Of a stretch of DNA of 64,000 nt, positions 24,615-25,802 are shown one piece after another. How positions within the stretch are numbered: position 1 is the stretch's first letter; every line of letters begins with the position of its first letter. The DNA comes from an uncultured Paracoccaceae bacterium. Lineage in GTDB: Bacteria > Pseudomonadota > Alphaproteobacteria > Rhodobacterales > Rhodobacteraceae. Location: the NCBI GenBank assembly GCA_947499635.1, contig CANMPD010000002.1:124001-188000 (forward strand), given 5' to 3'. The notes under the pieces are model-generated. The model did no database searches, was not told the DNA's origin, and saw only the letters and a program-made list of their open reading frames with translations. The position numbers and the translations under genes were made by a program.

Positions 24615-25802
24615 TTACACGTTCACTGGAGTTAAAGTGCGTCGCGCCTCGAGAAGGCTTGCGACTTGGTCAGATTGCTGTGCGCCTTGAAACCGCGAAC
24701 CTGTAACTGTGTCAGACAAACGCGAGAACGCCGTGAAAAACGTTTCAAATTCTGGGATACTTGCTTCGGCGCCTGCCAAAATAGATTGCTCCGATTGCGT
24801 TAATCCACCCTGCACATGTGATCTCAGAGCAGTCCAGCTGATACCAAGAGCGCGCTGCCCTCTCGTTGAGTTCGAATTTTCTACCATAGAATATGTCGCC
24901 ATAGAGACACCCCGCAGTGCACTGGTTCCACGCCCGTGAATAAATGACTTCACGCCTGTATAATCTGTATCAAATAGTTTAGCTCCTTCAACCCTAGAGA
25001 GAAACCAATTCAATACAAAATATTCATGATAGTTATCCATTGCCCCCACCATAATAGGTCGCGTTGAGAGCTCGAACTGGCTATGGGAGGTTTTAAGGAA
25101 TGTTCGCCACAGGTCAGGCACGGCTGATTGTGTAAACTCCAACGCGAGGCATACTTCTGCTAATAAATCAGGATCCTGATCTAAATACGCAATACCGCCC
25201 GCGAAATATAAGCTCTGTACCGTTTCCGGTGACACCTGCGGGTCACAGCGACCGTAATCCGACAAATAAAAGAGAATATGCGTCAATTCATAAGCTGTTC
25301 TGCGATTTGGAATTGCAAAGTGATGGCTACGTTCGGTAAATTGACGCAACCGTTCATCTAGGCGCTCACCACTGTCCACACCTGCTTTCACTTCAACGCC
25401 GCGACGCGCCAACAGTCGGCGAACTTCAGCACGTTGTAGATCAGATAGCTCGGCATCAACCAGTTGTGACTGCGCAACCCATTCAGCCAATTCCAACCCA
25501 CGTGACCCCGGCAATCCAAGGTCTTCCAAATCAATACATATAGATAAAATAAACCTGTAATACTGTCGGAAAAAATTCATGTATCGCATACTTCCTTCGT
25601 AAAAGGGGCGATAACACTCCAAATCAATTAAATCGCGCTTTAATCCACCATCATTTAAAACTGCTAAAAATTCAGCATTTTCTTTTAACCACATAACATC
25701 TTGCCGATTGTGGCGAGAATTAAAAAATACATTTATCAAATTTAAATAAGGGTCTTTTTTTAATTTATCTCTACGATCTGAAAGTAAATAAATATTTTTC
25801 AA
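24615..25802 (-). CDS. Uncharacterised 395-aa protein; candidate peptide-modifying or maturation enzyme
   Basis: No family recognised with certainty. Possible DUF6902/DUF6895-like helical family from memory only, via NRRTAYELTHILFYLSDYGR and DNYHEYFVLNWFLSR. Stop codon overlaps the DMT start region (TAATATG). Confidence 0.75.
   Translation of the reverse strand: MKNIYLLSDRRDKLKKDPYLNLINVFFNSRHNRQDVMWLKENAEFLAVLNDGGLKRDLIDLECYRPFYEGSMRYMNFFRQYYRFILSICIDLEDLGLPGSRGLELAEWVAQSQLVDAELSDLQRAEVRRLLARRGVEVKAGVDSGERLDERLRQFTERSHHFAIPNRRTAYELTHILFYLSDYGRCDPQVSPETVQSLYFAGGIAYLDQDPDLLAEVCLALEFTQSAVPDLWRTFLKTSHSQFELSTRPIMVGAMDNYHEYFVLNWFLSRVEGAKLFDTDYTGVKSFIHGRGTSALRGVSMATYSMVENSNSTRGQRALGISWTALRSHVQGGLTQSEQSILAGAEASIPEFETFFTAFSRLSDTVTGSRFQGAQQSDQVASLLEARRTLTPVNV

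Follow-up and report, generated by a model that had tools for sequence, protein, structure and literature searches.

Does the protein encoded at 24615-25802 act as an enzyme on the small peptide whose gene lies beside it? This was the original prediction for the window (the whole 64,000-nt stretch of DNA analysed here), and a comparison of related loci bears on it at several levels. DUF6902, the family of this protein, together with a tandem-repeat gene appears to form a peptide-making machine that is so far undescribed. The pairing of enzyme and precursor is well supported, and the chemistry is what homology would suggest. Taking both together, we lean towards a multicore RiPP-type system in which the window gene encodes the maturase and every core is modified by it, most likely by epimerisation.

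The DUF6902 gene and its neighbours

The features of the locus, with the basis for each in brackets, are:

26392..27198, plus strand: flanking gene, exodeoxyribonuclease III-like xth, outside the cassette (Pfam Exo_endo_phos; synteny)
25867..26076, minus strand: precursor peptide, 69 aa from the second ATG (26076), 72 aa from the first (26085) (ORF; repeat and N-terminus comparison)
25978..26031, minus strand: repeat unit 1, SVFEGEATGLVSSTVLDY, core-equivalent VSSTV at 25987-26001 (self-identity test)
25870..25923, minus strand: repeat unit 2, SIFEGAGTSMVSSTVFDI, core-equivalent VSSTV at 25879-25893 (self-identity test)
24615..25802, minus strand: DUF6902 protein, proposed maturase, 395 aa, TTG start (ORF; Pfam PF21843, E 5.1e-112; model pLDDT 88)
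25251..25292, minus strand: codons 171-184, YELTHILFYLSDYG, motif common to DUF6895 (Y171, T174, H175, F178, D182, G184) (conservation; profile alignment)
25155..25169, minus strand: codons 212-216, DLLAE, with conserved D212 and E216 (conservation; profile alignment)
25026..25037, minus strand: codons 256-259, DNYH, with D256 conserved in DUF6902 and Y258-H259 common to DUF6895 (conservation; profile alignment)
23732..24613, minus strand: EamA-family transporter, two bases downstream of DUF6902 (Pfam PF00892, E 9.9e-13)
23203..23526, plus strand: flanking gene, Fe-S cluster assembly protein, here called erpA, outside the cassette (Pfam PF01521; synteny)

The 395-aa ORF, predicted without a strand, lies on the minus strand, and both motifs that had been quoted from it are present in the translation. 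Its match to DUF6902 (PF21843) scores 374.7 bits against a cut-off of 27 and covers profile positions 3-350 of 351; this full-length match marks the ORF as a real gene. A second Pfam match, to DUF6895 (PF21836), is weaker (56.8 bits against a cut-off of 23.8, E 3e-15) and covers only aa 74-227. Judged by these profiles, the window protein is kin to DUF6895 and not a proper member, the match being partial and far weaker than that to DUF6902. Both family names had been offered in the original prediction as possibilities, and both are borne out; neither family carries a functional annotation in the libraries used. The expectation of a mostly helical protein also agrees with the AlphaFold2 model (mean pLDDT 88, pTM 0.86), which is almost entirely helix. 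A PDB fold search with this model gave no significant match (best E 0.12, TM <0.3, taken as noise). PDB sequence searches with the window protein and with the DUF6902 and DUF6895 profiles gave no match, NCBIfam returned nothing relevant for the protein, and a literature search on DUF6902, DUF6749 and the core strings found no paper.

The window protein has the invariant residues of DUF6902 (R30, W38, E41, Y82, E118, D121, R124, R151, G184, D256, W323 and R361). The motifs proposed earlier as catalytic stood in part: Y171, H175, D182, G184, Y258 and H259 are common to DUF6895, and H175 and H259 are kept in 98% and 97% of 101 homologues, whereas the His pair of ERSHHF is not conserved among these homologues.

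For the precursor, the second ATG is the better start because AAAGGA precedes it at normal spacing and the resulting MSSLKK N-terminus is as in relatives (MSxLKK-like). Its two 18-residue units are identical at 12 of 18 positions, a level reached by 0 of 3000 shuffles of the peptide, and the precursor of a same-genus relative has three units with SSTC replacing SSTV. As an example of the system, the window copy is short and divergent, with two units, and its enzyme forms a long branch on the DUF6902 tree. With a short precursor and a long branch, it may therefore be a specialised or relaxed member; the residues common to DUF6895 are intact in it. Between precursor and xth lies an A+T-rich gap (26086-26391), possibly the control region of the cassette, which holds a 42-aa basic ORF on the plus strand (26116-26244).

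Tandem cores at one chromosomal site

DUF6902 was matched in 110 of 397 genomes of the window's bacterial family (about 28%), probably Rhodobacteraceae to judge by protein content, mostly at 37-51% identity, and in a sample of the class it exceeded the cut-off only in this family. A small ORF precedes DUF6902 in 101 sampled loci of the family. With one fixed motif, 89 of these 101 ORFs were found to be tandem arrays with at least two identical cores; two more (L090 and L116) are arrays as judged by eye, and about ten loci have no recognisable array. The precursors contain 2-20 units (median 6), an MTALRK-like N-terminus is common to 71 of the 89, and 47 end exactly with a core. Pfam searches of the precursors gave chance matches only. 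The layout of copies and spacers is like that of cyanobactins, dikaritins and the yeast alpha-factor precursor, each of which has several product copies with spacers in one precursor; the precursors and enzymes are unrelated, and the window cassette, compared with these systems, encodes no protease.

The unit consensus is G-[DE]-[AG]-[VT]-x-[MLA]-F-x-S-x-x followed by A/G-P, with Ser (86%) or Thr (12%) at the second core position after Phe; since the units were selected with this motif, conservation at its fixed positions is in part circular, whereas homogeneity at the free positions is not. The core varies inside the constant G[DE]x[VT] frame and can thus, as in RiPPs, be told apart from a leader or recognition segment. 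Within a genome, 91% of unit pairs agree in all four residues that follow the Phe position, compared to 5.7% of pairs between genomes, and 41 different cores are dominant in some genome. Codon differences between cores of one precursor are 83% synonymous (3968 of 4793), compared to 17% in the spacer just upstream, a contrast inflated by the imperfect register of the spacers, since unit lengths vary. Because the core differences are mostly synonymous, recent duplication alone does not explain the uniformity of the cores. Related species also differ in core type. In one genus, a genome with eight FCSAS cores (G108) has relatives whose enzymes are 80, 71 and 62% identical to its own and pair with FSSGS x8, FSSAS x5 and FSSGS x2, and in another genus FTSGS x8 is found alongside FSSGS x9 and x11. 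All copies therefore tend to switch together. A core that is uniform in a genome and yet switches together between related species suggests that the exact sequence carries specificity, as for a signal or a narrow antagonist.

At four loci (L116, L117, L118 and L124), the upstream ORF has kept the array layout and lost the Phe, with the atypical cores ALSPSC, LMPTSN, MMSCS and STSSF. As outliers, they are of use in working out the requirements of the enzyme.

The presence of the precursor follows that of the enzyme. Searching with a precursor gave a match in each of 22 enzyme-positive genomes and in 0 of 28 enzyme-negative ones, so that, as for RiPPs, a short precursor gene is linked to a maturase gene across genomes. 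On the enzyme tree, cores of the x-S-W-S type fall mostly together (8 changes, compared to a mean of 18 and a minimum of 13 after shuffling); the last core residue shows no such fit to the tree, needing 28 changes where shuffling gives a mean of 31 and a minimum of 26. We are confident that enzyme and precursor belong together, as the predicted tie to the neighbouring peptide had implied. The first interpretation thus anticipated the family, the helicity and the peptide link; made from one sequence alone, it missed the multicore nature of the precursor and the EamA gene.

Of the 99 loci with a match, 93 have xth next to the cassette, 88 have the Fe-S assembly gene there and 88 have dgt. Around xth in 27 enzyme-negative loci, the Fe-S gene is within reach in 19, DUF6902 and EamA are found in none, and the gap at the erpA-xth site is down to 30-72 bases in four. 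The cassette therefore occupies one chromosomal site, between erpA and xth, and is absent there as a whole in enzyme-negative genomes. The site includes EamA in 74 of the 99 positive loci compared to 0 of the 27 negative loci, and the EamA distances show a rank correlation of 0.79 with those of DUF6902 (for xth with DUF6902 the value is lower, 0.39). In the 25 of 99 loci without EamA, the DUF6902 stop is usually 16-116 bases from the Fe-S gene. The minimal cassette is therefore precursor plus DUF6902. Neither a protease gene nor a dedicated immunity gene was found linked to the cassette. Searches of plasmid and viral collections gave no homologue, and the mobile-element and phage readings were dropped for this reason.

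At one locus, the same xth-dgt site is occupied by a DUF6902 relative that has diverged strongly (L126:4831-5928; 24% identity). It has neither the LTHxxFY motif nor a recognisable precursor, and may be an enzyme in decay or put to another use.

Relation to DUF6895 and the proposed reaction

The reaction proposed for DUF6902 comes from its relation to DUF6895, for which the alignment was built from four DUF6895-type proteins of other lineages and then 24 loci from a named genome collection. The two family profiles align with a probability of 96.9% in local and 97.9% in global mode (hhalign). The global alignment pairs Y171, T174, H175, F178, D182, G184, D212, E216, Y258 and H259 with conserved DUF6895 residues in the same order, such that the motifs YxxTHxxF, D/E-x-G, DxxxE and YH are kept between the families. 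By this comparison, the homology between DUF6902 and DUF6895 is remote but extends along the full length, and the two families have their candidate catalytic residues in common. The families differ in that identity is about 16% and DUF6902 has an invariant set of its own (R30, W38, E41, R124, R151, R361 and others). The precursors differ as well: those of DUF6902 are tandem F-x-S arrays, whereas those of DUF6895 are short and non-repetitive with single hydrophobic-aromatic ends.

A lasso-peptide epimerase of the DUF6895 family is reported, by its title, in Shi et al. (ACS Catal. 2026, doi 10.1021/acscatal.5c08590; cited in PMC13352647). No lasso enzymes were found at the window locus. By analogy with the activity named in that title, and given that enzyme and precursor are a pair, we consider epimerisation the probable reaction. 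In the proposed scheme, DUF6902 would bind the N-terminal segment of the precursor, the repeated G[DE]x[VT] segment, or both, and would modify every F-x-[ST]-x-x core, most likely from L to D at the alpha-carbon, as homology to DUF6895 suggests. Two histidines, H175 and H259, may act with the backing of acids among D182, D212, E216 and D256. This arrangement is proposed by analogy with DUF6895 and, for layout only, with MslH, the epimerase of the lasso peptide MS-271, which has the pairs His88/Asp91 and His295/Asp11 in a calcineurin-like fold with a bound metal (PMC10406935). On this proposal, MslH and the window protein would be alike in two His/acid pairs and in alpha-carbon epimerisation of a ribosomal peptide. 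They differ in that MslH has a calcineurin-like metal fold, whereas the window protein is modelled as all-helical, with no homology detected and no MslH-type calcineurin-like PDB match for the model. A host protease would then release the cores, probably before the A/G-P dipeptide, for export by EamA or another carrier.

The same multicore RiPP-type system could carry out other core chemistry: Ser/Thr dehydration, cyclisation, or linkage of a side chain to the acidic residue of the unit. The prevalence of Ser and Thr two positions after Phe would suit Ser/Thr chemistry, and a model of the Bacillus siamensis DUF6895 protein weakly resembles alpha/alpha-toroid enzymes, a group of varied chemistry (for example MstE, TM 0.57; E 0.011 to 0.06 across entries). 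The window protein nonetheless retains all residues conserved in DUF6895, the family with the epimerase known from its title, and Pfam and NCBIfam detected no kinase-, lyase-, ATP-grasp- or radical-SAM-type domain in it. We regard other chemistry as possible, if rather unlikely.

A reading in which the repeat protein is a structural protein, intracellular or at the surface, and DUF6902 is a chaperone or assembly factor without covalent chemistry seems improbable. Low-complexity Ser/Thr/Ala/Gly repeats could make a fibre or a disordered tail, but cores that stay identical in each genome while the spacers drift, and that vary between congeners, fit a released product better than a scaffold, and the non-repetitive precursors of the DUF6895 relatives also count against a structural role. 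A two-gene layout that starts with a small ORF could also suggest a toxin-antitoxin or anti-phage system, with either toxin or antitoxin encoded by the small ORF. This is hardly credible given a PADLOC search without a relevant match, a single fixed position next to housekeeping genes instead of in islands, the lack of homologues in the plasmid and viral searches, and arrays of up to 20 units that are unlike antitoxins.

If the maturase reading is true, the unstudied DUF6902 family gains a testable substrate and reaction, and a peptide family is added that is present in more than a quarter of the species sampled from a single large bacterial family. With as few as two genes needed, the system would be small enough for reconstitution in E. 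coli. The roughly 40 core variants that occur in nature, together with their matched enzymes, would be material for learning maturase specificity, and the arrays would serve as a model for how a repeated gene keeps its copies alike while the type switches between related species. A bolder version, which we hold to be unlikely as a whole, is an undescribed RiPP class in which one helical enzyme with no known cofactor epimerises every species-typed core, and the D-residue peptides are signals specific to a species, with every copy switching type simultaneously from one sister species to the next.

DUF6895 loci in other lineages

As in the window system, DUF6895 follows small precursor-like ORFs in many lineages. 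In most cases it is preceded by one or two small ORFs that begin like a leader and have a hydrophobic, aromatic end (Bacillus siamensis, B. velezensis, Lederbergia, Streptomyces, Flavobacteriaceae, Methylococcaceae, Gilvimarinus and others). In length and hydrophobic ending, these precursors of other phyla are similar to epipeptides, in which the ribosomal peptide YydF of Bacillus subtilis is given D residues by one maturase, YydG. The enzymes differ, YydG being a radical-SAM enzyme and the window protein having no such domain.

In B. siamensis (L173:5433-6582) and B. velezensis (L175:5392-6543), DUF6895 comes directly after a 59-aa precursor-like ORF (containing SGNSFAWSGWVLVVPSQEDNQNP), so that a small peptide system may exist in these biocontrol bacilli; in B. 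siamensis, two overlapping genes of no known family are downstream. One further gene, overlapping or a few bases off, often follows DUF6895 (L158:6872-7480, L160:6852-7421, L162:6910-7821, L167:6641-7483 and L149:7482-8576). The downstream genes that were scanned had no Pfam family match, and they may encode partner subunits. In Rhizobium sp. CF122 (L149:4771-6703), two paralogous precursor-like ORFs ending in ALVGRWYVYVGTEE and SLVGPWFVLAGDQT precede DUF6895, and a papain/C39-like cysteine protease is encoded further upstream, making this locus a possible fuller cluster.
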